The notes below the pieces were generated by a model that saw only the letters and a list, made by a program, of their open reading frames with translations, was not told where the DNA came from and did not search any database. DNA of 64,000 nt from Sinomonas humi (GTDB lineage: Bacteria; Actinomycetota; Actinomycetes; Actinomycetales; Micrococcaceae). Position numbers and translations under genes: made by a program. Below, piece after piece: positions 1-18,777 of the stretch. The DNA lies in contig NZ_JTDL01000079.1 of assembly GCF_000802235.1 (NCBI RefSeq), positions 121,230-185,229 on the forward strand. The letters run 5' to 3'. How positions within the stretch are numbered: position 1 is the stretch's first letter; the number at the start of each line of letters is the position of its first letter.

Positions 1-1361
1 ATCCGGCGACCGAGGAAGTCATCGCAACCGTTGCCGACGGCGGCCCGGAGGATGCTCAGCGGGCCATCGAGACCGCAGGCCGCGTCCAGAAGGAATGGGC
101 CAAGACGGCCCCCCGTGAGCGCAGCGAGATCCTGCGCCGCGCCTACGACCTCATCATGGCCCGGCAGGACGAGCTCGCCCTGATCATGACGGCGGAGATG
201 GGCAAGCCGCTCGCCGAGGCCAAGGGAGAGGTCGCCTACGCGGCCGAGTTCTTCCGCTGGTTCTCGGAAGAAGCCGTCCGGATCGGCGGCGACCTCACGA
301 CGACGGGCGACGGCAAGAACCGGATCCTCGTCTCGCGCGAACCCGTCGGCCCCTGCGTGCTCGTCACCCCGTGGAACTTCCCGCTCGCGATGGGCACGCG
401 GAAGATCGGTCCCGCGATCGCCGCCGGCTGCACGATGGTCTTCAAGCCGGCGAACCTCACCCCGCTCTCCTCCCTTGCCCTGGTCGACATCCTTGTCGAG
501 GCCGGTCTGCCCGACGGTGTCCTTAACGTCGTTTGCACCACCAAGGCCTCCGAAGTCGTCTCGCCCTGGATGTCCAGCGGGATCGCCCGCAAGGTCAGCT
601 TCACGGGCTCGACCGCGGTCGGCGTGCGCCTGCTCGAGCAGGCTTCGCAGCACGTCATGCGTTCGTCCATGGAGCTCGGCGGCAACGCCCCGTTCATCGT
701 GTTCGAGGACGCAGACCTCGATCGCGCGGTCGAGGGTGCGGTGGCGGCCAAGATGCGCAACATGGGCGAGGCCTGCACGGCCGCCAACCGGCTCTTCGTC
801 CAGCGCTCGGTGGCCGACGAGTTCGCCCGCAAGCTCGCGGACCGGCTGGGCGCGCTCTCCCTCGGGGACGGTGCTGAGCCGGGGACCGACGTCGGCCCCC
901 TCGTGGAGGAGAAGGCCCTGCGGAAGGTCCAGGAGCTCGTCGACGACGCGGTGGGCAAGGGCGCCGTCGTCGTCTGTGGCGGTAGCCGGCCCGATCGCCG
1001 TGGCTACTTCTACTCGCCCACGGTCCTCTCCGACGTCTCGCCGGAGGCGGACCTCATGACCGAGGAGATCTTCGGCCCGGTGGCACCGGTCGTGCCGTTC
1101 GACACCGAGGATGAGGTCCTCCGCCTCGCCAACGACACCCCGTGGGGCCTCGTGGGCTACCTCTTCACCCAGGACGTCGACCGCGGATTCCGCGTAGGGG
1201 AGGCTCTCGAGGTCGGCATGGTCGGGCTCAACACCGGGATTGTCTCGAACCCCGCCGCGCCCTTCGGCGGCGTCAAGGCCTCTGGCCTCGGGCGCGAAGG
1301 CGGTCGTGTGGGGATCGAGGAGTTCCTCGAGTACAAGTACATGGCGGTTCCGAAGGCGTAA
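1..1361 (+). CDS. gabD: NAD(P)-dependent succinate-semialdehyde dehydrogenase family protein (5' end cut by window)
   Basis: The reading frame is open to the window edge, so the N-terminus is missing. The protein is an aldehyde dehydrogenase. Seen: the PWNFPLAM segment of the cofactor fold, the glycine motif FTGSTAVG, the general-base motif MELGGN and the catalytic cysteine motif GEACTAANR. The MTAEMGKPLAEAKGEV stretch is typical of GabD-type succinate-semialdehyde dehydrogenases, which oxidise a semialdehyde to the acid in the cytoplasm. In known ectoine clusters a GabD-like enzyme (DoeC/Ssd) oxidises aspartate semialdehyde. The nearby ehuBCDA and ectoine-hydrolase genes make that role plausible here, but substrate is inference. 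It converges on the GntR gene and ends at a strong terminator. Confidence 0.88.
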   Translation, partial: PATEEVIATVADGGPEDAQRAIETAGRVQKEWAKTAPRERSEILRRAYDLIMARQDELALIMTAEMGKPLAEAKGEVAYAAEFFRWFSEEAVRIGGDLTTTGDGKNRILVSREPVGPCVLVTPWNFPLAMGTRKIGPAIAAGCTMVFKPANLTPLSSLALVDILVEAGLPDGVLNVVCTTKASEVVSPWMSSGIARKVSFTGSTAVGVRLLEQASQHVMRSSMELGGNAPFIVFEDADLDRAVEGAVAAKMRNMGEACTAANRLFVQRSVADEFARKLADRLGALSLGDGAEPGTDVGPLVEEKALRKVQELVDDAVGKGAVVVCGGSRPDRRGYFYSPTVLSDVSPEADLMTEEIFGPVAPVVPFDTEDEVLRLANDTPWGLVGYLFTQDVDRGFRVGEALEVGMVGLNTGIVSNPAAPFGGVKASGLGREGGRVGIEEFLEYKYMAVPKA

Positions 1362-1394
1362 GTCCGCAGCGGAGCCCACAGCGACGCTCTTACG

Positions 1395-1438
1395 GCGAAG
1401 GCTCCCGACGGTAGATCCGTCGGGAGCCTTCGCTTTTG
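1395..1438 (+). terminator. Rho-independent terminator after the aldehyde dehydrogenase
   Basis: A perfect 17-bp stem (1395-1411 pairs with 1417-1433) with a TAGAT loop is followed by a short T run. It lies between convergent genes and probably serves the plus-strand dehydrogenase. Confidence 0.85.
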
Positions 1439-1509
1439 CCGTTTGTCGTGTGTCTCTGGGTTCTGTCTTCGTCTATGGCCTGACGGCGCGGGAAGGAAGC
1501 GTCTCAGGC

Positions 1510-2193
1510 TCAGGCGGGTTCTGCAGTCGATGCCTCTTCGGGGGCCTCCATGAGCCGAGCCACGGCGTCGTCCATGTGGGCGACGAGGAGCCGGTCTGCC
1601 TCCTCCGCGTTCCCGTCCCTGATCGCGGCAGCGATCTCGTGGTGCTCATCCGCACGAACGAAGTGCGAGGCGTAGCGGGTCTCGAGCGCGGTGATGCACA
1701 TGCGTGTCTCGACCATGAGCGTGTTGTGCATCCGCGAGAGGCGCGGGCTCTTCGCGAGGGCTACGAGAAGTGCGTGGAACTCCACGTCCGTCTCGGTGAG
1801 AGCGTCGGCGTCGTCGTCGTTCGCCGCCTTGCGCATTCTCTTGGTCACTTCGAGGAGCTGCTTTCCGCCGTCCTTCGCATCGAGCTGGATCACGCGGGCC
1901 GCTGCTGCGCGCTCAACGGCTGCCCGCGCAAGGTACATGTCGCGCACGTCGTCGTCCGTCACTTCGATGACAAAGACGCCGCGGTTGCGGATACTGACGA
2001 GGAGGCCCTCCTGGGTGAGGCGTTGCATCGCCTCCCGCAAGGGCCCTCGGCTGACCCCGAGGTGACGGCTCAATTCTGCTTCGTTGAGCTGCTCGCCGGG
2101 GGCGAGCTCTCCTTGACCGATCGCCCTGCGCAATTGGCGGGCAATGAGTGCGGGAGTTGTCTCCTGCACTACCGGCGTGAGCAACTGGGCCAT
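1510..2193 (-). CDS. GntR family transcriptional regulator, FCD (FadR) subfamily
   Basis: A 227-residue regulator. The N-terminal winged helix (about residues 15-75) contains ELSRHLGVSRGPLREAMQRL, the classic GntR recognition helix region. The C-terminal all-helical FCD ligand domain (about 85-215) has the DVEFHALLVALAKSPRL segment and later histidines typical of the FCD metal/ligand site. The ATG start has an upstream GAGGAG ribosome-binding site. A perfect palindrome, GATTGTCAACAATC, lies 38 bp upstream of the start codon, and near-copies precede four other units in the first 15.4 kb. It is therefore the likely local, self-regulating repressor. The inducer is unknown; an ectoine breakdown intermediate is the natural guess. 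Confidence 0.9.
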   Translation of the reverse strand: MAQLLTPVVQETTPALIARQLRRAIGQGELAPGEQLNEAELSRHLGVSRGPLREAMQRLTQEGLLVSIRNRGVFVIEVTDDDVRDMYLARAAVERAAAARVIQLDAKDGGKQLLEVTKRMRKAANDDDADALTETDVEFHALLVALAKSPRLSRMHNTLMVETRMCITALETRYASHFVRADEHHEIAAAIRDGNAEEADRLLVAHMDDAVARLMEAPEEASTAEPA

Positions 2194-2231
2194 GCCCTCT
2201 CCTCAATCTAGTGAGACCCCCAAGATGGGCC

Positions 2232-2245
2232 GATTGTCAACAATC
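2232..2245. promoter_or_regulatory. GntR operator 1 (regulator's own promoter)
   Basis: The 14-bp sequence GATTGTCAACAATC is a perfect inverted repeat. Read on the minus strand it contains TTGACA, usable as a -35 box for the regulator gene, which suggests autorepression. Confidence 0.65.
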
Positions 2246-2318
2246 ATAACACGTGACCCTGCGCACCTGGAGGGGAAGTTTGACCGGCAAAAAGAGTGGC
2301 GCGGATCACATTCCAAAG

Positions 2319-2340
2319 GTATTGTTGTTGACAATCCTAC
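2319..2340 (+). promoter_or_regulatory. GntR operator 2 before the enolase-superfamily gene
   Basis: The right half TTGACAATCCTAC matches operator 3 exactly; the left half keeps GTA and TTGT but is less perfect. TTGACA at 2328-2333 is a possible -35 box inside the operator. No convincing -10 box was found at standard spacing. Confidence 0.6.
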
Positions 2341-2421
2341 AGCCTAGGTTGGGGCTACAGGATCCCGCATCCGCGACTCAAACCCTCATTTCAAGCCATC
2401 CAAGAGTTAGGAAAGATTGCC

Positions 2422-3600
2422 GTGCGCATTACCGGTCTTCGCGCCACCCCCGTTGCCGTTCCGTTCGTCGAGGACGAGATCTGGGCGTTCGGAGGACGCC
2501 GCGGAATGGTCAGCATTCTCTTGGAGATGGAGACGGACGAAGGAGTGGTTGGACTCGGCGAAGCGGCAGCATACCCGTCCGCGGACATTGTGCTGGCGGT
2601 CTTCAAGTCCATCGAGTCGCTCGTCATAGGGGAGAGCCCCTTCAATGTCGAGCGAATCATGAAGCGCGTCAACATCATCGGCACGTGGCACCACGTGAAG
2701 TCGACCAGCACGGCGATCGCGGCTGTCGAAATGGCTTGCTGGGACATCGTGGGCAAGGTCAGCGGCCAGCCTCTCGTCAACCTCTTCGGCGGTCGAGTCC
2801 GCGACGAGGTCGAGTTCTTCTACTACCTGAGCCACAAGCCCGCCTCAGAGATGGCCGACGACGCCGCGAAGGGCTACGCCGAGGGCTTCCGCACCTTCTA
2901 CATCAAGGTCGGTTCGATGGAGCCGAGCCAGGACATCGAGCGTGTTGAGGCGATCCGGGCCTCCACTGGCCCCGACGCCAAGATCCGCGTGGACGCGAAC
3001 GAGGCGTGGTCAGCGGCCGCGGCAATCCGGATCGTCGGTGAGATGGAGCGCTTCGGGCTCGAGCTCGTGGAGCAGCCCATCTCAGGCCGCAACCTCGCCG
3101 AGATGGCCTACCTGAGGGGACGGATCAACACCCCGCTCCTCGCCAACGAGGCCTCCTGGACCCGTTACGACCAGCTCGAACTCATCAAGGCCGGCGCGGC
3201 CGACGTCGTCTCGGTCGACAACCAGATGGACGGCGGTCTCCTTAACCTCAAGCGAGGTGCAGGCCTGTGCGAGGTTGCCGGGCTTCCGGTGCTCAAGCAC
3301 AGCCTGGGCGAGCTCGGGGTTGCGGCCTACGCCGCTGTCCACGTCATGGCCTCGACGCCCAACTTCATCTACGCCAACCAGGGCTACGGTTCGTTCCTCG
3401 CGGACGACATCATCGCGGGCGCAAGCCCTCTGCCGTACGAGAACGGCTGCCTCGCGGTTCCCGAGAAGCCCGGCATCGGGATCGAGCTCGACGCCGAGCG
3501 CGTCGCGAAGTACGCGGAGCTGTACGAGAGCGAGGCTGAGAACTTCTCGTTCCATGAGTCTGAGAAGATCGCGAGCACTCCGCTCATGCCGAAGCGCTGA
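2422..3600 (+). CDS. Mandelate racemase/muconate lactonizing enzyme family protein (enolase superfamily)
   Basis: A 392-residue enolase-superfamily enzyme: N-terminal capping domain (about 1-125) followed by the TIM barrel. Visible active-site residues fit the mandelate-racemase pattern. Lys162 (YIKVG) is one base, Asp191 (RVDANEAW), Glu217 (LVEQP) and Glu243 (LANEA) are the Mg2+ ligands, and Asp266 (VSVDNQ) with His293 (LKHS) could form the opposite-face dyad. The first Lys of the usual KxK is Tyr160. Such enzymes abstract the proton alpha to a carboxylate and then racemise, epimerise or dehydrate. The GTG start has AGGAAAG upstream. It heads the operon with an M24 protein and an amidase and lies behind operator 2. 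The substrate is unknown; a hydroxylated or wrong-stereoisomer ectoine derivative is possible. Confidence 0.85.
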   Translation: MRITGLRATPVAVPFVEDEIWAFGGRRGMVSILLEMETDEGVVGLGEAAAYPSADIVLAVFKSIESLVIGESPFNVERIMKRVNIIGTWHHVKSTSTAIAAVEMACWDIVGKVSGQPLVNLFGGRVRDEVEFFYYLSHKPASEMADDAAKGYAEGFRTFYIKVGSMEPSQDIERVEAIRASTGPDAKIRVDANEAWSAAAAIRIVGEMERFGLELVEQPISGRNLAEMAYLRGRINTPLLANEASWTRYDQLELIKAGAADVVSVDNQMDGGLLNLKRGAGLCEVAGLPVLKHSLGELGVAAYAAVHVMASTPNFIYANQGYGSFLADDIIAGASPLPYENGCLAVPEKPGIGIELDAERVAKYAELYESEAENFSFHESEKIASTPLMPKR

Positions 3601-3632
3601 CCAGCTGGCAGACCTGAAAGAGAGCGAGCACC

Positions 3633-4868
3633 ATGACTCCGCAGTCTTCGGCGCCGGCGCCCACGGCAGGCATGCCTCCCGCCGTCGCTCCGACCCCCTT
3701 TGTCGACCCTGAGGCTTCTTTCTTCTCACGGGAGGAATTCGACCTGCGCGTGGAGCGCGTCCGGGAGGGGATGCAGCGCCGAGGCCTGGAAGCACTCTTG
3801 CTCGTGAGCCCCGAGAACCTCTACTACCTCACGGGACTGAACCACCAGGGCTATTTCGCTTTCACCCTGCTGGTTCTCCCGCTCGAGGGCGAGCCGCTCG
3901 TCGTCGCCCGCGCGATGGAGGGCGCTACGATCTCGGCGCAGATCCCGCAGTGCCGCCACATCGCGTTCGCAGACTACGAGGACCCGGCTGAGGTGGCGGC
4001 CAACGCTGTCGCCTCGGCCGTCCGTCAGGGGGCCAAGGTTGGCGTCGAGGAATCCTCGATGTGCTTCCCGCTCAACGTGTGGGAGCCGTTGCGTGGACGA
4101 CTCGAGGGCCTTGAGCTCGTGGATGGCTCGGGAATCGTCGAGGCGTTCCGCCAGGTCAAGAGTCCGGCCGAGATCGAGCACGTGCGGCGTTCCGCCCGCG
4201 CGTCGTCGCTCGCTATCGAGGCGGGCCTTGGCACGGTCGCGGCGGGGGTGTCCGAGCGTGAGGTCGCGGCCGCCGTCTACCGCGAGATGATGCTCGCCGG
4301 CAGCGAGTACCCCGGGTTCGCCCCCTTGATTCGCTCGCGAGACCTCCTTCTCCAGGAGCACGTCACGTGGCGGCCTCGCGTCATCCAGCCTCAGGACGCG
4401 GTCTTCATGGAGCTCTCTGCATCCGTCGCGCGGTACCACGCGCCATTGACGCGCATGGCCTATGTCGGTGAAGCGCCCCGGGGCACGGAAAGGGCCGCAG
4501 ACATCGCTTCGGCCGGTCTCGAGGCCGTCCGTGAGGCGCTGCGCCCGGGCAACGTGAACGGTGAGGTCTACGCGGCTTGGCAGAGGGTCATTGATTCCGG
4601 GCTGGGCCACTCGAATTACCGCAGGCATCACTGCGGGTACGCCATCGGCATCGGCTTCCCGCCTAGCTGGGTCGGAGGGGCGAGCGTGGCAGGCCTGAGG
4701 GCCGGCGGTACCACGGAGATCCGAGAGGGCATGGTCTTCCACGTTCTCTCCTGGATCCTCGACCAGGAACCAGCCGACTACGTCATCTCCGACACCATGC
4801 TCGTTACGGCGAACGGCGGCGAGATCCTGACGACTACTCGGCGCGACCCCATCGTGGTCCCTTCCTGA
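3633..4868 (+). CDS. M24 (creatinase/prolidase-fold) hydrolase, metal-ligand-less
   Basis: A 411-residue pita-bread protein of the M24 family. Residues about 30-165 form the creatinase-like N-terminal domain (LLLVSPENLYYLTGLNHQGY) and the rest the catalytic domain. At the positions where aminopeptidase P carries its metal-binding aspartates it has MELSASVARYHAPLTRM instead, so the Asp pair is lost, as in creatinase and ectoine hydrolase. A catalytic-type His remains in MVFHVLS. This points to a metal-free C-N hydrolase, not a true Xaa-Pro peptidase. It is a diverged paralogue of the protein encoded at 14158-15339. It starts 32 bp after the enolase-family gene and is probably cotranscribed with it. 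The substrate is unknown. Confidence 0.82.
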   Translation: MTPQSSAPAPTAGMPPAVAPTPFVDPEASFFSREEFDLRVERVREGMQRRGLEALLLVSPENLYYLTGLNHQGYFAFTLLVLPLEGEPLVVARAMEGATISAQIPQCRHIAFADYEDPAEVAANAVASAVRQGAKVGVEESSMCFPLNVWEPLRGRLEGLELVDGSGIVEAFRQVKSPAEIEHVRRSARASSLAIEAGLGTVAAGVSEREVAAAVYREMMLAGSEYPGFAPLIRSRDLLLQEHVTWRPRVIQPQDAVFMELSASVARYHAPLTRMAYVGEAPRGTERAADIASAGLEAVREALRPGNVNGEVYAAWQRVIDSGLGHSNYRRHHCGYAIGIGFPPSWVGGASVAGLRAGGTTEIREGMVFHVLSWILDQEPADYVISDTMLVTANGGEILTTTRRDPIVVPS

Positions 4869-5077
4869 TGCGCGCGCGAACCCGACAGGACCGTCTTTCA
4901 GCGCCAAGGACCTCGAAGGCTCCCCTTGAGGAGTACGCCGAGGTCTACTGGAACAAGGGCGAGCGGCTCGGGCCTACTGTCTACTACAGGGGCCAGGGCC
5001 CGCGCGGAGGATCGCCGAGGGCCGTGGGCAACCGAACCGGAGGATGGGCCCTCGAAGAAGAGAGGAAGGGACAATGA
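4868..5077 (+). CDS. Small hypothetical protein coupled to both neighbours
   Basis: A 69-codon frame that starts within the stop codon of the M24 gene (TGATG) and stops within the start of the amidase gene (ATGA). The middle, around LEEYAEVYWNKGERLG, shows GC-ending codons like a real gene, while both ends are arginine- and glycine-rich and look less protein-like. No family was recognised. The double overlap suggests translational coupling, but the frame may be a fortuitous opening in a 205-bp spacer. Confidence 0.35.
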   Translation: MRARTRQDRLSAPRTSKAPLEEYAEVYWNKGERLGPTVYYRGQGPRGGSPRAVGNRTGGWALEEERKGQ

Positions 5078-6489
5078 ACGATCTGGCCCTGCTGACAGCT
5101 ACCGAACTGCTGGATGGATACCGTCTGGGCGAGATCTCGCCCGTCGAGGCGACGCGAGCTGCGCTCGATGCCATCGAGGAGGGCAACGGGAGCGTCAATG
5201 CCTTCGTCTCCGTCCATGCGGAGGAGGCGCTCGCAGATGCGGCCGAGTCTGAGAAGCGCTGGGCGGCCGGCTCCCCGCTGGGGCCGGGCGACGGGGTCCC
5301 GACCTCTATCAAGGACATCTTCTACACACGAGGCTGGCCGACGCTGCGGGGGACGGAGCTCATCGACGAGGACCGGCCGTGGAACGAGGATGCGCCCTGC
5401 GTGGCGCGGCTGCGTGAGACCGGCGCGGTCCTGCTGGGGAAGACGACGACGCCGGAGTTCGCCTGGAAGGGGGTCACCGACTCACTTCGCCACGGATCCA
5501 CGGGAAACCCTTGTGCCCCAGGGCTCACCTCTGGCGGATCGAGCGGAGGCAGCGCGGCCGCCGTGGGAATGGGAATGGGCCCCTGGTCTGTGGGCACGGA
5601 CGGGGGCGGCTCCGTGCGCATCCCTGCCGCCTTCACTGGCACGGTGGCGATCAAGCCCACGTATGGCCTCGTCCCGATGTTCCCGGCCAGCCCGTTCGGC
5701 ACTCTCGCCCACGCCGGTCCGATGACTCGTACCGTGGCTGACAGCGCTCTCCTCCTCGACGTCATCACTGGATTCGACGCTAGGGATTGGTCCGCCCTCC
5801 CGACGCCGCAGGGTTCCTTCATGGAAGGCCTGCACGACGGCGTCGAAGGGCTTCGGATCGCCTTCTCGCCAACGCTTGGGTTCGGACGGAATGACCCGGA
5901 GATCGAAGCGCTTGTCCGGGAGGCCGCCGCTGCATTCGAGGGCCTCGGAGCGCAGGTAGAGGAAGTGGATCCGGGGATCGAGGACCCGGTTGAGGCGTTC
6001 CACGTGCTGTGGTTTGCGGGCGCCGCGAAGGTGCTCGAGCCTTACGGGGCAGCTGCATTCGAGCGCATCGACCCAGGGCTGCGCCGCAGCATCGAGGAAC
6101 AAGGAGTCTTCAGCGCTTCAGACTTCCTCGACGCGACGGCCGTGCGTATGGATCTGGGCGTACGGATGGGTCTCTTCCACGAGACCTACGATCTTCTCCT
6201 GACTCCGACCCTTCCCATCCCGGCATTTTCCCGCGGTCGGGACGTGCCTGAGGATTGGAGCTCGGAGTACTGGACGAGCTGGACGCCTTACACCTACCCG
6301 TTCAACATGACTCAGCAGCCGGCTATGAGCGTCCCCTGTGGATTTACCTCGGCTGGGCTCCCCGCGGGGCTCCAGATCATCGGTCCACGACATTCTGACC
6401 GGCTGGTCCTGCGGGCGGCACAAGCCTACGAGTCGGCGGCGGATTGGCGAAGCGCCCTTCCCGCGCCTGTCCGGGCGGCAGCCCACTAG
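5074..6489 (+). CDS. Amidase (amidase-signature family)
   Basis: A 471-residue amidase-signature enzyme. The catalytic Ser-cisSer-Lys elements are visible: the lysine in PTSIKDIFYTRG, the glycine/serine-rich GLTSGGSSGGSAAAVG, and the nucleophile region GTDGGGSVRIPAAFTG followed by IKPTYG. The ATG start at 5074 is preceded by GAGGAAGGGA; an earlier in-frame start 30 bp upstream is less well placed. These cytoplasmic enzymes hydrolyse amides. In this operon it may remove an acyl or carboxamide group made by the neighbouring enzymes, but no substrate can be read from sequence. The gene ends at a strong hairpin. Confidence 0.9.
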   Translation: MNDLALLTATELLDGYRLGEISPVEATRAALDAIEEGNGSVNAFVSVHAEEALADAAESEKRWAAGSPLGPGDGVPTSIKDIFYTRGWPTLRGTELIDEDRPWNEDAPCVARLRETGAVLLGKTTTPEFAWKGVTDSLRHGSTGNPCAPGLTSGGSSGGSAAAVGMGMGPWSVGTDGGGSVRIPAAFTGTVAIKPTYGLVPMFPASPFGTLAHAGPMTRTVADSALLLDVITGFDARDWSALPTPQGSFMEGLHDGVEGLRIAFSPTLGFGRNDPEIEALVREAAAAFEGLGAQVEEVDPGIEDPVEAFHVLWFAGAAKVLEPYGAAAFERIDPGLRRSIEEQGVFSASDFLDATAVRMDLGVRMGLFHETYDLLLTPTLPIPAFSRGRDVPEDWSSEYWTSWTPYTYPFNMTQQPAMSVPCGFTSAGLPAGLQIIGPRHSDRLVLRAAQAYESAADWRSALPAPVRAAAH

Positions 6490-6496
6490 GCATATG

Positions 6497-6536
6497 AAGG
6501 CCCTTTGGAGAGCTCTTGGCTCCTCCAGAGGGCCTT
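6497..6536 (+). terminator. Terminator hairpin after the amidase
   Basis: Arms 6497-6510 and 6523-6536 pair over 14 positions (one G-U) around a 12-nt loop. A CTTGTTG stretch follows. It separates the amidase operon from the transporter promoter. Confidence 0.75.
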
Positions 6537-6554: not shown

Positions 6555-6592
6555 AGTAGGATCGTTGACAATCCTACTGTGACCCATCTAAC
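6555..6592 (+). promoter_or_regulatory. GntR operator 3 and promoter of the MFS gene
   Basis: The best operator copy spans 6555-6578: AGTAGGAT on the left mirrors ATCCTACT on the right around a CGTTGACA centre. The centre holds TTGACA (6565-6570); 16 bp later TCTAAC (6587-6592) is a fair -10 box. A bound repressor would cover the -35 element. Confidence 0.7.
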
Positions 6593-6655: not shown

Positions 6656-8092
6656 ATGAATCGGCAACAACGAGCGGCGCACCCAACGGCGGGTCAGCGC
6701 CCAGCAGCACCTGCGGAAGCTGCGGCATCCGCGGGGACCGTTCACATCGAGCCTGACGCCCGCACCATCCGCCGGGCCGTCGCGGCATCGGCCATTGGCA
6801 ACGCCACGGAATGGTTCGACTATGGCGTCTACGGATATTCCGTCACGTACATCACCCACAACTTCTTCCCCGGCCAGGCCGGGACCCTGCTGACGCTGAG
6901 CACCTTCGCCTTCTCGTTCCTCATCCGGCCGTTGGGCGGCCTGTTCTGGGGTCCGATCGGCGATCGCCTCGGGCGCAAGCGGATCCTCGCCCTCACGATC
7001 ATCCTGATGTCGGCGGCGACGGCCCTCATCGGCGTCCTGCCCACTGCTTCCCAAGTCGGCCTGCTGGCCCCCGTGCTGCTGATCATCCTGCGGGCGATCC
7101 AGGGCTTCTCCACCGGCGGTGAGTACGGCGGCGCCGCGACCTTCATGGCCGAATACGCACCTGATCACAAGCGCGGCTTCCTCGGAAGCTTCCTCGAGTT
7201 CGGAACGCTCTCCGGCTTCGCTCTTGGGTCCCTGCTCGGTCTGCTGGGCGAGGCCACGGTCGGAACCCAGTCGATGAACGACTGGGGCTGGCGCGTACTC
7301 TTCCTCTGCGCTGTCCCGCTCGGCGCCATCGGCCTCTACCTCCGCACCCGTCTCGCCGAGACCCCTGTCTTCGAAGAGCTCGAGCGCGAGGGGAAGGCTG
7401 AAGACAAGGCGACCTCGAGCCTCAAGGACCTTGTGGCCAAGTACTGGCCCAGCATGCTGACGCTCACCGGCCTCGTGATCGCCTTGAACATCGTCGACTA
7501 CACCTTGCTCACCTACATGCCGACCTATCTCGAGGGCGAGGCGGGCCTTCCCAACCAGACGGTCCTGATGATCATGTTCATCGCGCAGTTCGTGATGATG
7601 CTTGTGATCCCCTTCGCGGGTGCCCTCTCCGACCGTGTGGGCAGGAAGCCGATGTGGTACGCGTCCCTGATTGGACTCTTCGTGCTCTCGGCGCCGATGT
7701 TCATGCTCATGGCGCACGGATTCTGGGCCGCCCTGATCGGCTTCGCTGTTCTCGGCCTGCTGTTCATCCCGCAGCTGGCAACGATTTCGGCGACGTTCCC
7801 CGCCATGTTCCCCGCTCATGTCCGCTACGCGGGGTTCGCCATCACGTACAACATCTCGACGTCGATCTTCGGCGGCACCGCGCCCCTGTTGAACCAGGCC
7901 GGCATCGACACGACCCACAACGCACTCTTCCCCGCGTTCTACATGATGCTCGCCTGCATCATCGGCGTGATTTCGGTGCGGTTCATGAAGGAGACGGTAG
8001 GTGCTTCCCTGCGGGGCCGGGAGCTTCCCGAGACGAAGCCGCAGACCGTCGTCGGCTTCAGGGGATCGCGCGCTCAGACGCAGCCTGAGTAG
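6656..8092 (+). CDS. MFS transporter, metabolite:H+ symporter (ProP/ShiA-like)
   Basis: A 478-residue protein with twelve predicted membrane segments. The start of the fold reads AIGNATEWFDYGVYGY and the loop motif is GDRLGRKR. The FSTGGEYGGAATFMAEYAP segment is characteristic of the MHS group, which includes ProP. ProP-type symporters carry proline, betaine and ectoine with protons across the inner membrane. The gene has its own promoter and operator 3, so it is likely a second uptake route for the substrate of this regulon. The long Ala/Pro-rich N-terminus precedes the first membrane helix; the ATG is the only well-placed start. A terminator follows the gene. Confidence 0.88.
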   Translation: MNRQQRAAHPTAGQRPAAPAEAAASAGTVHIEPDARTIRRAVAASAIGNATEWFDYGVYGYSVTYITHNFFPGQAGTLLTLSTFAFSFLIRPLGGLFWGPIGDRLGRKRILALTIILMSAATALIGVLPTASQVGLLAPVLLIILRAIQGFSTGGEYGGAATFMAEYAPDHKRGFLGSFLEFGTLSGFALGSLLGLLGEATVGTQSMNDWGWRVLFLCAVPLGAIGLYLRTRLAETPVFEELEREGKAEDKATSSLKDLVAKYWPSMLTLTGLVIALNIVDYTLLTYMPTYLEGEAGLPNQTVLMIMFIAQFVMMLVIPFAGALSDRVGRKPMWYASLIGLFVLSAPMFMLMAHGFWAALIGFAVLGLLFIPQLATISATFPAMFPAHVRYAGFAITYNISTSIFGGTAPLLNQAGIDTTHNALFPAFYMMLACIIGVISVRFMKETVGASLRGRELPETKPQTVVGFRGSRAQTQPE

Positions 8093-8208: not shown

Positions 8209-8246
8209 GTCATATTGTTGACAATGCTACATACTGTCCATAGGTT
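8209..8246 (+). promoter_or_regulatory. GntR operator 4 and promoter of ehuBCDA
   Basis: ATTGTTGACAAT at 8214-8225 is a perfect 12-bp palindrome with partly conserved flanks (GT on the left, GCTAC on the right). TTGACA (8218-8223) with a 17-bp spacer and TAGGTT (8241-8246) makes a plausible promoter overlapped by the operator. Confidence 0.68.
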
Positions 8247-8320: not shown

Positions 8321-9211
8321 ATGATCGAGTTGTCGCGAAGAAGCGTCTTGAGAAGTGCAGGAGTGGCCGCCCTTGGAGCATCCTTGGCTGGCTGGGCCAG
8401 TGGGTGTTCGAGCGTTCCTTCAGGGGGACCGGCAGCGTCGCCGAATGGAAACCTCCTGGACACCGCGAAGTCGCAGGGCTTTCTGCGGGTCGCCATCGCA
8501 AATGAACCGCCCTACACTCAGGTGAACACGGACGGCACAGTGAGCGGCTGTGAGCCTGACGTGCTGAGGGCGGTGTGCCAGCGGATGGGCATCAAGGACA
8601 TTCAGGGTGTTGTCACCCCCTACGCCTCGATGATCCCCGGGCTCAACGCGAACCGCTGGGATGTCATTGCCGCAGGGCTCTTCATGAAGCAGCCGCGCTG
8701 TGGCCAGGTGGACTATTCGGAGCCCGTCATCGTCTCGACCGAGTCCTTCGCCACCCCGAAGGGCAATCCCAAGGGCATTACGTCTATTGCCGCGGTCACG
8801 TCGAACTCTGGCCTCAAGATCGCGGTGCTTCCAGGCGGGTTCGAAGAGGGCATCCTCAAGACGGCCAAGGTTCCGGATTCGCAGCAGGTCAAGGTAAGCG
8901 ACGGCCGCAGCGGAATCGAGGCAGTGAAGGCGAACCGTGCGGATGCCTTCCTGCTCCCGACGCTCTCCCTTCGTGCGCTCGCGAAGGATGACGCGGGCTT
9001 CGAGGTCACGGCCCCGCTTAAAGACGCCCCTCGCACGGGCTCGGGTGCCGCCTTCAGGAAGACCGACGCTTCATTCCACGACGCCTACAACAAGGAGCTT
9101 GCGGCGTTCAAGCAGACGAGCCAGTTCGCCGACATCCTCAACAAGTGGGGCTTTGACCCGACCGTCGTCCAAGGCGTGACGGCGCAGGAACTATGCCAGA
9201 CCGCAGGATGA
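8321..9211 (+). CDS. ehuB: Ectoine/hydroxyectoine ABC transporter substrate-binding protein
   Basis: A 296-residue extracytoplasmic binding protein. The N-terminus carries a twin-arginine motif (SRRSVLRSAG) and a lipobox ending in ASGC, so it is probably a Tat-exported lipoprotein. The family-3 binding fold follows. Several stretches match what is known of EhuB: MIPGLNANRWDVIAAGLF, GNPKGI, and the C-terminal TAQELC. EhuB captures ectoine or 5-hydroxyectoine and delivers it to the EhuCD channel. A good AAGGGA ribosome-binding site precedes the ATG. It is the first gene of ehuBCDA behind operator 4. Assignment is by recalled family features and not by a search. Confidence 0.83.
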   Translation: MIELSRRSVLRSAGVAALGASLAGWASGCSSVPSGGPAASPNGNLLDTAKSQGFLRVAIANEPPYTQVNTDGTVSGCEPDVLRAVCQRMGIKDIQGVVTPYASMIPGLNANRWDVIAAGLFMKQPRCGQVDYSEPVIVSTESFATPKGNPKGITSIAAVTSNSGLKIAVLPGGFEEGILKTAKVPDSQQVKVSDGRSGIEAVKANRADAFLLPTLSLRALAKDDAGFEVTAPLKDAPRTGSGAAFRKTDASFHDAYNKELAAFKQTSQFADILNKWGFDPTVVQGVTAQELCQTAG

Positions 9212-9244
9212 TCCCGGCCAGCACGCGGACGATCGGAGGCTCCC

Positions 9245-9943
9245 ATGTCTGCAGTCGTTGAGTACTGGCCGCTGCTCTGGCAGGGGATGTGGACGACCGT
9301 CCTCGTCACGGCTCTCGGCGGAGTCGTGTGCGTTCTGGTCGCTTTCACGGCGGGGCTTGGACGCCTCTCGACCCACTGGTTCTTCCGGGTGCCGGCAGCA
9401 GTCTTCGTCGAGGTATTCCGCGGGACGTCGCTGCTCGTCCAGATGTTCTGGTTCTTCTTCGCACTCCCGTTCTTCGGGATCCAGCTCTACCCGATGACGG
9501 CAGCTGTCCTTGCCCTCGGCTTCAACGAGGGGGCCTACGCGGCGGAAGTGGTGCGGGGCGCAATTGCAAGCCGTCCCAAGGGGCAGACGGAGGCCTGCAC
9601 CGCTCTGGGCATGGGCCCGGCGCTCCGCCTTCGCCGGGTCATCATCCCGCAGGCGATCCCGGCGATGCTCCCGCCCTTCGGGAACGTCATGGTCGACCTG
9701 TTGAAGAACACCTCGCTCGTCTCGCTCGTCACGGTCGCGGACCTCACGTTCCGTGCCCAGATGATCCGGAACACGACGGGCCAGACGACGGCGGTCTTCC
9801 TCACCATTCTGGTGATGTACTTCGTGCTCTCGTCGATTCTGACCCTGCTGACCGGCTTCCTTGAGCGGCGCTTCGCCCTTGACCGCAAGGCCAAGGCGGC
9901 CTGGCGGGCAGAGCGGCGGTTCATGAAGGCGGGGACGGCATGA
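9245..9943 (+). CDS. ehuC: Ectoine/hydroxyectoine ABC transporter permease EhuC
   Basis: A 232-residue amino-acid-type ABC permease of the HisMQ group with about five membrane helices. Features: FRGTSLLVQMFWFFFALPFFG near the N-terminus and the coupling (EAA) loop TEACTALGMGPALRLRRVIIPQA. It forms the membrane channel with EhuD. The ATG has GGAGG ten bases upstream, 33 bp after ehuB. Its end overlaps ehuD by 4 bp (ATGA). Confidence 0.85.
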   Translation: MSAVVEYWPLLWQGMWTTVLVTALGGVVCVLVAFTAGLGRLSTHWFFRVPAAVFVEVFRGTSLLVQMFWFFFALPFFGIQLYPMTAAVLALGFNEGAYAAEVVRGAIASRPKGQTEACTALGMGPALRLRRVIIPQAIPAMLPPFGNVMVDLLKNTSLVSLVTVADLTFRAQMIRNTTGQTTAVFLTILVMYFVLSSILTLLTGFLERRFALDRKAKAAWRAERRFMKAGTA

Positions 9944-10579
9944 TCTGGGACAACGCCTTCGCCGTCTCGATCATCCCGCAGCTGCTTCAGGGACTCGTCG
10001 TCACGGTCGAGATCACACTCCTGGGAACGCTCATCGCCGCACTCCTCGGCCTCGCACTCGCGATCCTGCGCCGTCTGGCGATCCCGGTTGTATCCCAAGT
10101 GGTCACGTTCGCCGTCGTCTTCATCCGTGGAACCCCGCTGCTTGTTCAGGCCTATTGCGCATTCTTCGTGCTGCCGGACTACGGGATCAGCGCCGATGCC
10201 TTCACCACAGGGGCGATCGTGATCGGGATCAACTACAGCGCGTACATGGCGGAGGTCTACCGCAGCGGGATCCAAGGCGTGCACATCGGGCAGTGGGAGG
10301 CCTGCACGGCGCTCGGGCTTCCCGCGACGAGGGTTTGGGGGCGCATCATTCTTCCCCAGGCTCTCAGGACCGTGGTTCCCATGTTGGGCAACTACCTCAT
10401 CCAGATGTTCAAGGACTCGGCGGTCCTTTCGGCCATCACAGTCGTGGAGTTGCTCGGGACGGCCCAGGCCATCGGGAGCTCGAACTTCCGCTACCTGGAA
10501 CCGCTCACGATCGCGGCCATCCTGTTCCTGATCATCAGCTACCCATCGTCACGTCTCGTCAACAGATTGGAGCGGCGTT

Positions 10580-10596
<17 letters not shown>
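9940..10596 (+). CDS. ehuD: Ectoine/hydroxyectoine ABC transporter permease EhuD
   Basis: A 218-residue paralogue of the preceding permease, with [22 protein letters not shown] and the EAA loop [23 protein letters not shown]. It pairs with EhuC. The ATGA overlap with ehuC and the 17-bp overlap with ehuA indicate one translationally coupled operon. Confidence 0.85.
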
Positions 10597-11410
<814 letters not shown>

Positions 11411-11463
11411 TGCCCCATTCGGGCTGACGCCGGCGCCCCATTCGCGCTGACGCCGGCGCCCCA
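11411..11463. repeat. Short tandem repeat after ehuA
   Basis: About two and a half copies of a 23-bp unit beginning GCCCCATTC and ending GACGCCGGC follow the ehuA stop codon immediately. The function is unknown. It resembles the other short tandem arrays in this window in lying just behind a gene end. Confidence 0.6.
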
Positions 11464-11478
11464 TCTCAGGAGGAGCAG

Positions 11479-11526
11479 AGGGACAGGAAGAGCGGTGGCC
11501 GATCGACCACCGCTCTTCCTGTCCCT
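11479..11526. terminator. Long hairpin, probable terminator between convergent operons
   Basis: A perfect 20-bp stem (11479-11498 with 11507-11526) has an 8-nt loop. No clear T run follows on either strand, so it may act as a bidirectional RNA end or as a 3' stabilising structure. Confidence 0.65.
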
Positions 11527-11553
11527 AGCCCCCGTCTGGCCGCTACGCACGCC

Positions 11554-11647
11554 GGACTCTCACCAGCTTCTAGCTGACCCGGCCAGCGTGGCGGAACGGA
11601 ACCGCAGCGAGTCGTGCCGTGAATGGCTTGGAAACTGGTGAGACTCC
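11554..11647. other. Inverted repeat of unknown role
   Basis: Arms 11554-11566 and 11635-11647 pair at 12 of 13 positions across a 68-nt interval. The interval and its flanks are GC-rich and lie between convergent genes; no gene was seen. Confidence 0.45.
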
Positions 11648-11713
11648 AACAGCGGGGCCGCGCGACTGATCCCGGCAGTTATCGGAGGGAGCTAATGTCC
11701 GTGCCGGAGGCCT

Positions 11714-12904
11714 CTACTGATCAGGCCTGTGCCGGAGGCACAAGAGCGCGTAGGCCCTCGCCGCCGTCACGAGCTCGGAGATGCTGACCGATTCGTTGAC
11801 CTGATGGGCTTGGTCGTTGAGACCGCCGGGGCCCATCACAATCGTCGGTACGCCGAAGTCGCGAGCGATGAAGCCGCCGTCGCACGCCGCCGTCCAGCCA
11901 CCGATGCCGCTTTCGAAGCCGCAATCGGCGAGGGCGGCCACGGCATCCCTGACAAGCGGATGGTCCTCGGCTGTCCGGAACCCGGGCATCTCCATGGAGA
12001 CCCAAGCGCTCACAGAGATCCCGTCCCTTGAGATGCCCGCATCGATGATCCGCTGCTGGAGCGCCGCGAGGATGGCGCCGGCGTCGTCGTCGGGCATGAG
12101 CCGCCGGTCTAGCGAGACGGTGCATTCGCCCGCCACCATCGAGGTGCCGCTCCCGCCGCGAATAAGGCCGACGTTCCAGCTGCCCGCACCCAGGAGGGGG
12201 TCCTGGTGCATCTGCAGTTCGCGGTGGTCTTCCCTCAGGAGCTCGATGATTCGCGCGGCGGCATCGATCGCATTCCGGCCATCCGCGGGGCGCCCCGAGT
12301 GAGCGGACTTTCCTTGAATCGCCAACTCGATGTAGCTGTCTCCGCGGCAGCCGATCACTGTCCCGAGGTCGGTCGGCTCCGCGACGATGCAGCCCGAGAA
12401 ATTCGCGTCACCGGCGTGGACGCGTGTGTACTCGCGGATCCCGATGCCGAGGTCCTCCTCGTCGACGGTGCACGCAAACATGACCGCACCGGGCAGCTCA
12501 ACCCCTGCCTCCTTGAGCGCCTTGAGCGCCACAGCAACGGCGGCTAGCCCGCCCTTCATGTCCGTGGAGCCGCGGCCGTAGAGCCTGCCGTCGCGCTCGT
12601 ATGGCTCGAACGGCGGGTGTTCCCAGCCGTCGCCGGCGGGAACGACGTCGGAATGCCCGAGGAACAGCAGGCCGGGGCTGCTTCCTCCGGGCAGGACGGC
12701 GGTGAAGTTCGGGCGTTCGGGCGCGACGGATTCAGTCGCGGTGACCAGGCCCGCACCGAGGCAGAAGGCCTCGAGCACCTTCACCGTGGCATCCTCGGTT
12801 CCCCCGGGATTCTCGCCAGCGGCGGCGATGAGGGCGGCGGTGAGCGAGACGAGATCCGCTTCGGTGATCAGTTCGAGGACGTCGTCCTCGAACGAAGTGT
12901 TCAC
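11714..12904 (-). CDS. M20 family metallopeptidase/deacylase (ArgE/DapE/ACY1 type)
   Basis: A 396-residue M20 enzyme. The first metal-binding motif is LFLGHSDVVPAGDGWEHPPF, the bridging Asp lies in DMKGG and the catalytic Glu pair in CTVDEEDLG. A dimerisation (lid) domain follows (about 180-290). The GTG start overlaps the aminotransferase stop (GTGA), so translation is coupled; longer upstream openings of the frame run inside the neighbour and are rejected. Relatives remove acyl groups from N-acyl amino acids. Between the ectoine-hydrolase-like protein and the aminotransferase in the same operon it fits an N-acetyl-diaminobutyrate deacetylase. The described enzyme for that step (EutE/DoeB) is of a different family, so this is inference. 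Confidence 0.87.
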   Translation of the reverse strand: MNTSFEDDVLELITEADLVSLTAALIAAAGENPGGTEDATVKVLEAFCLGAGLVTATESVAPERPNFTAVLPGGSSPGLLFLGHSDVVPAGDGWEHPPFEPYERDGRLYGRGSTDMKGGLAAVAVALKALKEAGVELPGAVMFACTVDEEDLGIGIREYTRVHAGDANFSGCIVAEPTDLGTVIGCRGDSYIELAIQGKSAHSGRPADGRNAIDAAARIIELLREDHRELQMHQDPLLGAGSWNVGLIRGGSGTSMVAGECTVSLDRRLMPDDDAGAILAALQQRIIDAGISRDGISVSAWVSMEMPGFRTAEDHPLVRDAVAALADCGFESGIGGWTAACDGGFIARDFGVPTIVMGPGGLNDQAHQVNESVSISELVTAARAYALLCLRHRPDQ

Positions 12905-14154
12905 GCGCACGTACCGCCCTCCAGCCGCGCAAGCTCGATGTCCATGGCTCGGCGGAGCCGTTGGATCCCTTGATCGGTCCGCTCGGGGGTGCTCGTGGCG
13001 AAGCAGAGCCGCAGGGCGTCGTCGAACCTGCCCTCTGCCGAGAGTGCAGGCCCCGGGATGAACGCGACGCCCTCGGCGAGGCCGGTCTCGAACAGCCGGC
13101 GTGTTGAGATCTGCGCGTCGGCTCCCTGGAGGGTGAGCCAGAGGAAGAAGCCGCCTTCCGGGTTCGTCGTCGTGACGCGCTCGCCCAGATGCTGGCGGAT
13201 GCTGGACTGCATGGCGTCCCGCCGCCGTCGGTATTCGGCGCGGAGATCGCCCAAGTGGGTGTCGAGCCGCCCACGCCGGATGAACTCGGCAACGATGTGC
13301 TGCGCCGGGACGTTCGTGCACGTGTCCATGGCCTGCTTGGCGTTGATGACGAGCTGCCGCAATGCGGGGTGAGTGTCGACCCATCCCACTCGGAGCCCCG
13401 GCGCGAGAATCTTGGAGAAGGTGCGGACGGAGAACAGCAGGGGGTCGCCCGGGCTGAGCGCCTGAAGGCTCGGGAGGTCCTCGCCTTCGAAGCGGAGGAG
13501 GCCGTAGGGGTCATCGTCGATGATGACGGCGTTCCACTCGTGGGCGAGCTCAAGCAGCAGTTCGCGGCGCTCGAGGGAGAGCGTAGTCCCGGACGGGTTC
13601 TGGAAGTTCGGGATGGTGTAGATGGCCTTGGGCGTCCTGCCCGTGGCGGCAACCAGTTCGGGAAGGGCCTCGACGACGAGTCCGTTCTCGTCGAGCGGAG
13701 CCTCGAGGAGCTGGGCCCCGTAGCTCAGCGCGGTCGCGCTGCCGTTGGTGTAGGTAGGGCTTTCGACGATGACCAGGTCGCCGGGGTTGATGAAGATCTT
13801 GCAGGCGAGGTCGAGCCCCTGCATTCCGCCCGCGGTGATGGTCACTCGGTCTTCGTCGGTGGGATCGCTCGTCGTTGAGAGATATTCGACCAGCGCGCTG
13901 AGAAGCCGGGGTTCCCCTTCCGTCGCGCCGTACGTGAAGGTGTCGTGGCCCATCACCGTGTCCGCGATCTCCCGGAACTCCTCGAGCGGGACAGCCTCAT
14001 TGGCGGGCGATCCCATCGCGAAGCGGACGATGTCGTGCTTCATCGAAGCAAGGAGGGAGGTGCTCGAGTCGATGACGGAGCCAACCAGGCTTCCGGCGCG
14101 TTCGGCGAGGGGGAGGCCTTCGCGGGAGAGCAGTGCGAGGTTCTCGGTGGACAT
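12901..14154 (-). CDS. PLP-dependent aminotransferase (class I/II)
   Basis: A 417-residue fold-type I aminotransferase of the 2-aminoadipate/MocR-catalytic-domain type, without a GntR DNA-binding domain. Features: YGATEGEPRLLSALVEYL at the N-terminus, AGGMQGLDLACKIF, the PNFQNPSG asparagine motif, IIDDDPYG, and the PLP lysine in VRTFSKILAPGLRVGWV. It moves an amino group from an amino acid to a keto acid, likely in the cytoplasm. It sits in the middle of the three-gene operon and would convert diaminobutyrate to aspartate semialdehyde if the ectoine assignment is right (compare Atf/DoeD). Its start is 3 bp after the stop of the upstream gene. Confidence 0.87.
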   Translation of the reverse strand: MSTENLALLSREGLPLAERAGSLVGSVIDSSTSLLASMKHDIVRFAMGSPANEAVPLEEFREIADTVMGHDTFTYGATEGEPRLLSALVEYLSTTSDPTDEDRVTITAGGMQGLDLACKIFINPGDLVIVESPTYTNGSATALSYGAQLLEAPLDENGLVVEALPELVAATGRTPKAIYTIPNFQNPSGTTLSLERRELLLELAHEWNAVIIDDDPYGLLRFEGEDLPSLQALSPGDPLLFSVRTFSKILAPGLRVGWVDTHPALRQLVINAKQAMDTCTNVPAQHIVAEFIRRGRLDTHLGDLRAEYRRRRDAMQSSIRQHLGERVTTTNPEGGFFLWLTLQGADAQISTRRLFETGLAEGVAFIPGPALSAEGRFDDALRLCFATSTPERTDQGIQRLRRAMDIELARLEGGTCA

Positions 14155-14157
14155 GGC

Positions 14158-15339
14158 TCACCGTCCTTTCTGGATGAGTTCGCGCGGGAAGCTCGTGAGG
14201 ACTTCCGCGCCGCTGGGCGCGACCCGGATCGATTCCGAGAGCTCGTAGCCGTAATGGTCCATCCACATCCCGCCGATCAGGTGGAAGGTCATGTTCTCGG
14301 CGAGGACGGTCTCGTCCTCGCTGCGGATCGAGATCGTGCGCTCGCCCCAGTCGGGCGGGTAGCCGACGCCGATCGAGTAGCCGATGCGGGAGGGCTTCTC
14401 GAGGCCGTACTTGGCGAGGGTCTTGTTCCAAGCGTGTGCGAGGTCCCGCACGGCGACGCCGGGGCGGACGGAGTCGATGACGGTGTCGAGGCCCTCGGCC
14501 ACCACGTCTGCGAGCGAGGACAGGCGCTCTGGAGCCTTGCCGAGCGAGATGGTGCGCGCGAGAGGGGCGTGGTAGCGCTGGTGTGCGCCGGCAAGCTCGA
14601 CGACGACGGCCTGCCCGGCTTCGAAGCGATCCTCGCTCCACGTCAGATGAGGAGTGTCCGCGGCCTCTCCCGTGGGCAGCATGGGGACAATCGCCGGATA
14701 GTCGCCGCCCACGCCGTCACTTCCAGAGATCTGGGCATGGCTGATAGCGGCCGCGGCGTCGCACTGCCGGGTCCCGACGTCGATCGTTTCGACAGCGGCC
14801 TGCATGGCTGCGCCGCAGACGCTCGCTGCTTTCCGCATGAGTTCGATCTCGGCAGGGGACTTCACGGAGCGGACCCAGTTGACCAGCTCGAAGCTGTCGA
14901 CGAACGTCCATTCGGGAAGGGCATGGACGAGTGCCCGGTAGGCCTTGGGAGAGAAGAAATGCGAGTCCATCTCGAGCCCCACACAGCCTCCTGATGCGCC
15001 CGCGACGAGCCCCCGCTCTCGAAGCGAGAACGCGACCCAGTCGAAGGGGTGAACGGTGGGGCGATGGACGTACTGTTCCGGGTACCCGACGATGCACTCC
15101 TGGGGCAGCCAGGCCGTGCGGAAGGCTCCGCCAGCATCCATCGCACGCGTGAACAGCACCATCGGACCCTCAGCCGGAACGAAGACGAGCTGGGGAGTGT
15201 AGAAGGACCACGCGTTGTAGCCGGTCAGGTAGTAGAGATTGGCCGGATCGGTGACCAGCAGGGCGGAGAGCCCTTGGCGCGCCATCCGCTCGCGCACCTT
15301 CGAGAGCCGGGTGCCATATTCCCCTTCAGCAAACAACAC
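14158..15339 (-). CDS. doeA: Ectoine hydrolase-like M24 family protein (DoeA/EutD type)
   Basis: A 393-residue M24-fold protein. Several stretches match what I recall of ectoine hydrolase: TGYNAWSFYTPQ, IVGYPEQYVH, GGDYPAIVPMLPTG, PHLTWSED, and GYPPDWGERTISIRS. Ectoine hydrolase opens the pyrimidine ring to N-acetyl-diaminobutyrate. The metal-ligand Asp residues of true aminopeptidases are replaced (VELAGAHQRYHAPLART), while the active-site-type His in MTFHLIG remains. The GTG start at 15339 is chosen because it has GGAGG six bases upstream; an ATG 63 bp further upstream would run through operator 5 and lacks a binding site. First gene of the operon with the aminotransferase and M20 deacylase. 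Confidence 0.83.
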   Translation of the reverse strand: MLFAEGEYGTRLSKVRERMARQGLSALLVTDPANLYYLTGYNAWSFYTPQLVFVPAEGPMVLFTRAMDAGGAFRTAWLPQECIVGYPEQYVHRPTVHPFDWVAFSLRERGLVAGASGGCVGLEMDSHFFSPKAYRALVHALPEWTFVDSFELVNWVRSVKSPAEIELMRKAASVCGAAMQAAVETIDVGTRQCDAAAAISHAQISGSDGVGGDYPAIVPMLPTGEAADTPHLTWSEDRFEAGQAVVVELAGAHQRYHAPLARTISLGKAPERLSSLADVVAEGLDTVIDSVRPGVAVRDLAHAWNKTLAKYGLEKPSRIGYSIGVGYPPDWGERTISIRSEDETVLAENMTFHLIGGMWMDHYGYELSESIRVAPSGAEVLTSFPRELIQKGR

Positions 15340-15363
15340 GGTGCCTCCGATAGACGTCTTTTC

Positions 15364-15385
15364 GTTCCTTTGTTGACAATCTACC
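15364..15385 (-). promoter_or_regulatory. GntR operator 5 before the ectoine hydrolase operon
   Basis: TTTGTTGACAAT (15369-15380, one mismatch to the core palindrome) followed by CTAC lies 30 bp upstream of the GTG start. It is the weakest of the five copies but is placed correctly for repression. Confidence 0.6.
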
Positions 15386-18776: not shown

Positions 18777-18777
18777 A

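Follow-up and report, generated by a model that had tools for sequence, protein, structure and literature searches.

A predicted ectoine regulon in Sinomonas humi and a rare enolase-type/M24 gene pair that may form its hydroxyectoine branch

Ectoines are widespread osmolytes and nutrients. Here, we describe a locus of the actinobacterium Sinomonas humi that we lean towards reading as a single regulon for the import and degradation of ectoine, to which a mandelate-racemase-type enzyme of the enolase superfamily and a second DoeA-like M24 protein (M24b) would be added as a hydroxyectoine branch. The locus spans ∼24 kb of contig NZ_JTDL01000079.1 (C134; the source genome comprises 4.4 Mb in 156 contigs). 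The window, that is the whole stretch of 64 000 nucleotides that was analysed, is C134:121230-185229, and its coordinates are used below unless stated otherwise. The upstream edge of the locus lies ∼8.2 kb before the window, at two EutA-like genes, in a stretch that is upstream of the window and overlaps it (L007, C134:107000-126500). Ectoine use by the organism is likely; the hydroxyectoine branch through the enolase-type/M24b pair is predicted from sequence and is put forward more tentatively, as plausible rather than probable. The locus provides a bounded candidate regulon with a testable palindrome, and the pair constitutes a two-gene candidate for a hydroxyectoine step that is also encoded by Arthrobacter castelli DSM 16402 (L013), a named type strain.

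The shared palindrome and its predicted regulator

That these genes form one regulon was a guess in a preliminary description of the window, and it is now well supported by a palindrome, ATTGTYRACAAT, found with at most one mismatch at five sites of the window, where 0.09 are expected; none of 100 shuffled sequences reached five. These predicted operators are located 30-96 bases ahead of start codons. Two of them lie between the gene of a GntR/FCD regulator (1510..2193, minus strand; PF00392 and PF07729 above cut-offs) and that of the enolase-type enzyme (2422..3600, plus strand): ATTGTCAACAAT (2233..2244), an exact copy 40 bases ahead of the regulator start, and GTTGTTGACAAT (2324..2335), 87 bases ahead of the enolase-type gene. 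The others are ATCGTTGACAAT (6561..6572), 84 bases ahead of a major facilitator superfamily (MFS) transporter gene, the exact ATTGTTGACAAT (8214..8225), 96 bases ahead of ehuB, and TTTGTTGACAAT (15369..15380), 30 bases ahead of the corrected start of an EutD/DoeA-like M24 gene (M24a). L007 contains five sites, two of which repeat window sites, against 0.01 expected, and they precede both EutA-like genes and the class-III aminotransferase gene GabT3. In the whole genome, we counted 13 distinct sites, of which 8, including all three exact ones, fall inside C134:112996-136609, and this concentration in 24 kb indicates one regulon; the same pattern read backwards gave a single site in the genome. 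It is likely, therefore, that one regulon spans the locus, marked by the palindrome at the heads of its predicted operons.

The GntR/FCD protein is predicted to bind this palindrome. TKGT/ACMA boxes are given as the operator consensus of the FadR subfamily in PMC4494728, and such boxes are found in the ATTGTYRACAAT sites at the target promoters. A literature search with the letters of the palindrome returned one paper, on cyanobacterial promoters.

The distribution of the palindrome was also examined in relatives. Matches to M24a occur at 22 places of the family outside our own locus, and the contexts of all 22 were fetched (core loci); 18 of them have at least one site. A site was counted as near a gene if it lay between -300 and +90 of the start estimated by tblastn, with matches of at least 150 bits and with genes too near the end of a locus skipped. 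Counts across relatives rest mainly on tblastn, crude open reading frame (ORF) calls in GC-rich loci having given false minus-strand ORFs. A site is near the start of GabT3 in 10/10 core loci, of a D-2-hydroxyacid dehydrogenase gene (HADH) in 11/11, of the amidase gene in 3/3 and of M24a in 14/21; GabT3 and HADH are divergent and have one site in common. For genes that are mostly operon-internal, the corresponding counts are 0/20 for a class-I pyridoxal phosphate (PLP) protein (ATI), 0/20 for the M20 deacylase and 0/17 for GabD. Elsewhere the palindrome is scarce, with one site in the 1.04 Mb of 56 control loci that carry distant enolase-type genes and three in the 139 kb of seven other Ehu loci of the family.

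Importer, core enzymes and known ectoine clusters

The importer genes seen in the preliminary description were confirmed by family models. EhuB (8321..9211), EhuC (9245..9943), EhuD (9940..10596) and EhuA (10580..11410), all on the plus strand, pass the NCBIfam equivalog cut-offs (TIGR02995, 262.3 against 190.9 bits; TIGR03004, 261.1 against 196.95; TIGR03003, 258.5 against 205.2; TIGR03005, 380.5 against 345.4). The closest solved structure to EhuB is 2q88 (218.3 bits, aligned over 250 residues), and among the residues that we take to contact ectoine there, Glu, Tyr, Phe and Arg are identical and one Phe is replaced by Tyr. Among solved structures, M24a (14158..15339, minus strand, with 15339 as its likely corrected start) comes nearest to the ectoine hydrolase DoeA (6twj, 366 bits), and the 6twj alignment and a motif table give it DoeA-type motifs in place of what are presumably the canonical M24 metal ligands. 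M24a is thus predicted to be an ectoine hydrolase. It is accompanied by ATI (12901..14154, minus strand; PF00155, 117.1 bits; NF052282, 215.7, under the cut-off of 320) and by an M20 deacylase of the ArgE/DapE type (11714..12904, minus strand; TIGR01910, 219.5 against 217.6 bits, scored on a longer ORF that is an over-call, the start being corrected to 12904). ATI resembles MocR aminotransferase domains, has no helix-turn-helix (HTH) hit and scores 126.2 against a cut-off of 480 on the EhuR model. Under cut-off, it also resembles MppQ and GntC, the PLP enzymes of enduracididine and guanitoxin.

The M24a-PLP-M20 core is not exotic, because it recurs in the family. At E 1e-60, M24a matches are present in 21 of 120 family genomes (14 of 32 genera) and in 5 of 246 genomes of a phylum sample, two of which (our own and G009) belong to the same family and three of which have matches 43-46% identical. 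ATI and M20 are each found at 20 of the 22 other family places, where MFS, GntR/FCD, the GabT3-FAD oxidase-GabD group and HADH recur too. The enzyme set had been called unusual as a whole; this was rejected for the M20/M24a part, does not apply to the other recurring genes either, and stands for the enolase-type/M24b pair. A same-genus M24a match (L106, genome G104, M24a at 9463) has one in-frame TGA.

Several genes of the described ectoine pathway were looked for beyond the window. EutE (TIGR02994) has no match at E 0.001 in the genome, which agrees with the preliminary description, and among the 120 family genomes 16 match under the cut-off and none above. For EutB and EutC no match in the genome exceeds the cut-off, the best ones (266.8 against 413.35 bits and 57.7 against 471.65 bits, respectively) being on other contigs. 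The EutB-like protein, on C34, was rejected as part of a eut neighbourhood, as tblastn with 30 queries gave nothing at 55 bits in 19.9 kb. The reported lack of EutA did not hold: two EutA-family genes are located just upstream of the window (L007:6032-6787, plus strand, and 6874-7620, minus strand; 96 and 89.4 bits against the TIGR02990 cut-off of 318), so that their absence was an effect of the window edge. Of the two Cys kept in EutA1-type proteins (CTSG, CTNL), just the second is replaced by Asp in EutA2-type proteins. No EnuR is present among the regulon genes, as described before, a genome-wide EnuR search not having been made. Ectoine synthase was not found in the genome and was found in 32 of the 120 family genomes. 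With neither an EutE match nor an ectoine synthase, the simplest reading is that the organism looks like an ectoine consumer, in which the ArgE/DapE-type M20 is predicted to take the place of EutE. This M20 has no BLAST match at E 1e-4 to three M20 proteins of the M24 loci of NGR234, Priestia and Shinella, suggesting that the EutE slot would be filled by a different M20 branch.

The proteobacterial ehu/ueh-eutABCDE-ssd-atf cluster (S. meliloti, R. pomeroyi; PMC5924519, PMC8739950) is like our locus in its EutD-like hydrolase, its aminotransferase and semialdehyde dehydrogenase, its EutA-family genes, its organization as one substrate-type regulon and, in S. meliloti, its Ehu importer. However, our locus has an M20 for EutE, no EutB or EutC above cut-off and an FCD-type GntR for EnuR, and the enolase-type enzyme and M24b are added. 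In those papers (2018 and 2021), the EutABC conversion is stated not to have been biochemically evaluated and, in the later one, the precise activities of the enzymes required to use hydroxyectoine are called unknown. The S. fredii NGR234 plasmid (ehuBCDA-M20-eutB-eutC-M24-M24, L182) also combines Ehu with an M20 and two M24 proteins, but it has EutB/EutC where the window has the enolase-type enzyme, and its M24 proteins are 27-28% identical to M24b, neither being close.

The Bacillaceae putative clusters (PMC13188858, 2026; Priestia plasmid, L137) resemble our locus in lacking EutE and EnuR and often have a second EutD homologue. The Priestia M24 is 49% identical to M24a and its MFS 45% to that of the window, and an M20 is present there too. 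Whereas these clusters have EutB, a cyclodeaminase, PucR, a CGS-type PLP enzyme and a homoserine dehydrogenase, the window has an FCD GntR, the class-I PLP protein and the enolase-type pair. In the putative Bacillota clusters of the same source, abgB (an amidohydrolase) occurs with two EutD homologues, EutE is missing and PucR takes the place of EnuR, and to that extent the set is not novel. This source calls ectoine use by Gram-positive bacteria putative, and the word mandelate is absent from its main text. With a doeBDAC cluster noted in Tsukamurella (PMC7192451), ectoine genes in an actinobacterium are in themselves no novelty. Our results support the actinobacterial ectoine-type route proposed in the preliminary description, one that lacks EutE and has no EnuR at its locus.

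The enolase-type/M24b pair, its proposed role and competing explanations

The enolase-type gene (PF13378/PF02746) is followed by that of M24b (3633..4868, plus strand). The former is rare: at E 1e-60, and counting our own genome both times, it occurs in 2 of 120 family genomes and 2 of 296 genomes of the phylum sample, where the second match is just 36% identical. In A. castelli (family genome G004, NZ_AUMN01000010.1) it is 83% identical. From a scan of species genomes, 80 loci were retained, with fetched flanks whose lengths vary with the contigs; 24 of these have a gene at least 59% identical to the enolase-type enzyme, followed by a gap to at most 35% (the 56 control loci). M24b adjoins the enolase-type gene in 21 of the 24 and in none of the 56 controls, the misses being L022 (a metagenome-assembled genome labelled Ktedonobacteraceae), L033 and L034 (a partial enolase-type gene and another M24). 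EhuB is present in the flanks of 5/24 loci of the enolase-type gene, against 0/56 controls, and the seven proteins concerned are all above cut-off. In L014, L016 and L025 the pair is found together with GabT3, and the last of these loci, from Streptomyces brasiliensis, adds GntR, the amidase, GabD, HADH and both EutA-like genes. Palindrome sites precede the genes of GabT, M24b and the enolase-type enzyme in L014 and L016 (in L016 also facing ehu), M24b in L032, and EutA2 and GabT3 in L025.

Close relatives can have the remainder of the locus without the pair. In the same-genus locus L106, and in L119 and L123, the genes follow the order of the window, and the 20 kb fetched contain neither the pair nor ehu; at the limits used, the L106 genome has no match to the enolase-type gene or EhuB, implying either gain of both here or their loss there. 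In G009 (L149), where the enolase-type gene is missing, the amidase, MFS and GntR genes stand together with ehu and the EutA-like pair.

Both enolase-superfamily domains are present in the enzyme, as are the three positions that we take to be its metal ligands, the third of which is Asn. In 25/25 family members, Tyr-x-Lys is invariant, as are the ligand residues Asp, Glu and Asn and an Asp-His dyad (KHSLGELG); Tyr-x-Lys is found in 0/56 distant relatives, which have Lys at the Tyr position. The likeness to superfamily dehydratases and racemases covers both Pfam domains, the Lys base and the metal-ligand positions. The closest solved relative, 2pgw (223 bits), has Tyr-x-Lys and the His but Asp at the position of the Asn ligand and Gly at that of the dyad Asp, so it is the combination of residues that is distinctive. 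No superfamily member met in this analysis is described as acting on ectoines. M24b has DoeA as its closest solved structure (129.9 bits), and in 20 relatives and the window (L036 was unreadable) the motifs of DoeA are preserved apart from single exceptions. Compared with most M24a proteins, M24b has ELSG/ELSA for ELAG, EHVTW/EHVSW for PHLTW and FPPS for YPPD. In the M24 tree it forms its own clade with support 98/98; M24b_L036, M24a_L107 and M24a_L122 were left out for wrong frames, and two L008 rows and one L020 row with long branches were kept and are poorly placed.

In the route that we propose, EhuBCDA and the MFS transporter would bring in ectoines, M24a would open ectoine to N-alpha-acetyl-diaminobutyrate, the M20 would strip the acetate in place of EutE, and GabT3 and the GabD-like dehydrogenase would lead to aspartate, with the GntR/FCD protein repressing until an intermediate binds it. 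Acid-sugar dehydratases and mandelate racemase combine a Lys with a His-Asp dyad on the enolase scaffold. As the hydroxyl of hydroxyectoine is beta to the carboxylate, dehydration is the natural prediction. The Lys would take the alpha-proton, with the metal held by Asp, Glu and Asn, and the dyad would expel the 5-hydroxyl of hydroxyectoine or of the opened hydroxy-acetyl-diaminobutyrate. M24b would open the ring, the amidase or the M20 would deacetylate, and the resulting enamine would hydrolyse to 4-amino-2-oxobutyrate, which GabT3 and GabD could carry toward oxaloacetate without an EutC-type reductase. The predicted dehydration product, or its ring-opened form, is the compound proposed for EutB in PMC5924519. 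A bolder proposal, which we find rather doubtful, is that the enolase-type enzyme founds a family of hydroxyectoine (or hydroxy-acetyl-diaminobutyrate) dehydratases and that, with M24b, it would give a reductase-free route to oxaloacetate, replacing EutB/EutC in actinobacteria. The different hydroxyectoine branch suspected in the preliminary description has thereby found a candidate, whose action on hydroxyectoine we infer. A hydroxyectoine route opened by such a pair was not found described in our literature searches. No paper since 2015 joining ectoine, hydroxyectoine and mandelate racemase was found, subscription papers being mostly outside the search; among the matches listed, none joined ectoine, Arthrobacter, catabolism and the enolase superfamily, and for ectoine, FCD/GntR, catabolism and Actinobacteria no title was on this regulon.

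A number of observations weigh against the reading as one ectoine regulon with a hydroxyectoine branch. M24a scores 426.3 bits, under the cut-off of 613 of the ectoine-hydrolase model TIGR02993, so that the DoeA/EutD-type gene of the preliminary description is present and closest to DoeA but falls short of the family model; M24b scores 163.9 on this model and 238.9 against 575 on NF038259. Tyr-x-Lys is not confined to the enolase-type family, given its occurrence in 2pgw. Four of the 22 core loci (L120, L125, L126 and L127) have no palindrome site, and in the core loci a site is near the start of just 5/14 GntR, 1/17 MFS and 2/10 FAD oxidase genes. The palindrome occurs in just 5 of the 24 loci with the enolase-type gene, and a divergent LysR-type gene in 10 (one representative scanned). 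The links of EhuB to the pair come mostly from Pseudonocardiaceae-type loci, so few of them are independent. In just 4 of the 24 genomes encoding the enolase-type enzyme is there an M24a-like match of at least 39% identity, so the pair is more than a simple addition to the core, and in A. castelli the pair adjoins another ABC transporter, away from the core. None of the enzymes is encoded at the seven other Ehu loci of the family, which do have a GntR-like gene (29-40%). Finally, the simple route does not account for the FAD oxidase and the EutA-like pair.

Some of these points would fit other explanations. The sub-threshold scores of both M24 proteins and the different transporter in A. castelli could mean that the true substrate of the regulon, or of the pair, is another cyclic amidine or an N-acyl amino acid, the Ehu and DoeA similarities being family resemblance only. 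FCD-type GntR regulators reportedly serve other oxidised amino acids, an example being the hydroxyproline regulator HypR. We nevertheless consider this explanation quite improbable in view of the four Ehu subunits that all exceed equivalog cut-offs, of the presumed ectoine contacts that EhuB keeps apart from one Phe to Tyr change, and of the 49% identity between M24a and its counterpart in the Priestia cluster, where a EutB is annotated. A stronger competitor, although still an unlikely one, is that the pair acts on ectoine itself, with M24b as an alternative ectoine hydrolase and the enolase-type enzyme as an epimerase of ADABA or of the ring, no hydroxyl being involved. Most of the 24 genomes have, below the 39% level, just the matches of 30-37% expected of M24b itself (coordinates compared for two), and 1,1-proton transfer is likewise compatible with a Lys and a His on a metal-carboxylate scaffold. 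Yet our genome and A. castelli (L121) already have a DoeA-like M24a, there is no obvious need to epimerise L-ectoine, and the differences of M24b from most M24a proteins at the motif positions suggest another ring. The same-genus locus without the pair and ehu, which implies gain or loss separate from the core, could also be taken to mean that unrelated operons are neighbours by chance; this we regard as very improbable, because the palindrome is common to the operon heads and the gene combinations recur in other lineages (L016, L025).

Remaining genes of the locus and its surroundings

The other enzymes listed in the preliminary description, namely the M20, the mandelate-racemase-type enzyme, the second M24, the amidase and the GntR/FCD regulator, are all present, as are its PLP protein and its GabD-like dehydrogenase. 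The window opens on the 3' part of the latter, a GabD/Ssd-like semialdehyde dehydrogenase gene (1..1361, plus strand) that begins ∼129 bases before the window and is complete in L007 (14101-15591); the frame cut by the window edge scores 540.9 against a TIGR01780 cut-off of 646.35 bits. This gene is predicted to close a GabT3-FAD oxidase-GabD operon. In addition to its start and the EutA-like genes, L007 carries HADH, GabT3 and a YdiJ-like FAD/FeS oxidase (446.8 against a cut-off of 1350 bits). The amidase (5044..6489, plus strand) is of the PRK06169 type (NF004815, 739.4 against 506), and the MFS transporter (6656..8092, plus strand) is ProP-like (PRK10642, 406.3 bits, under the cut-off of 544).

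In L020, L023, L029 and L034, proteins like enoyl-CoA hydratase and methylmalonyl-CoA mutase and a third DoeA-like M24 recur beside the enolase-type gene and ehu, together with a protein of 250-259 amino acids without a Pfam match (one copy scanned). This protein was rejected as a remote EutA, the profile comparison giving a probability of 0.1%.

Downstream of M24a, the region 15493-22779 encodes an alcohol dehydrogenase (ADH), a 294-amino-acid protein without a match, a triosephosphate-isomerase-like protein and Rbs-type ABC sugar genes. It has no palindrome site, and as the window has no further site from 15493 on, these genes were rejected as regulon members; they are a separate sugar-type locus. 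A second ehu locus of the genome (L008, G000:C131:8000-27900) was likewise rejected as part of the system, with no palindrome site in its 19.9 kb and with different enzymes. Between its positions 1810 and 15121 it carries ehu, two threonine-synthase-like PLP enzymes, two M24 proteins, one of which keeps canonical-looking Asp positions, and two ArsR-type HTH proteins, and it also has an EutA-like protein (114.9 against 318 bits). L008 possibly represents a separate hydroxyectoine or amidine route.

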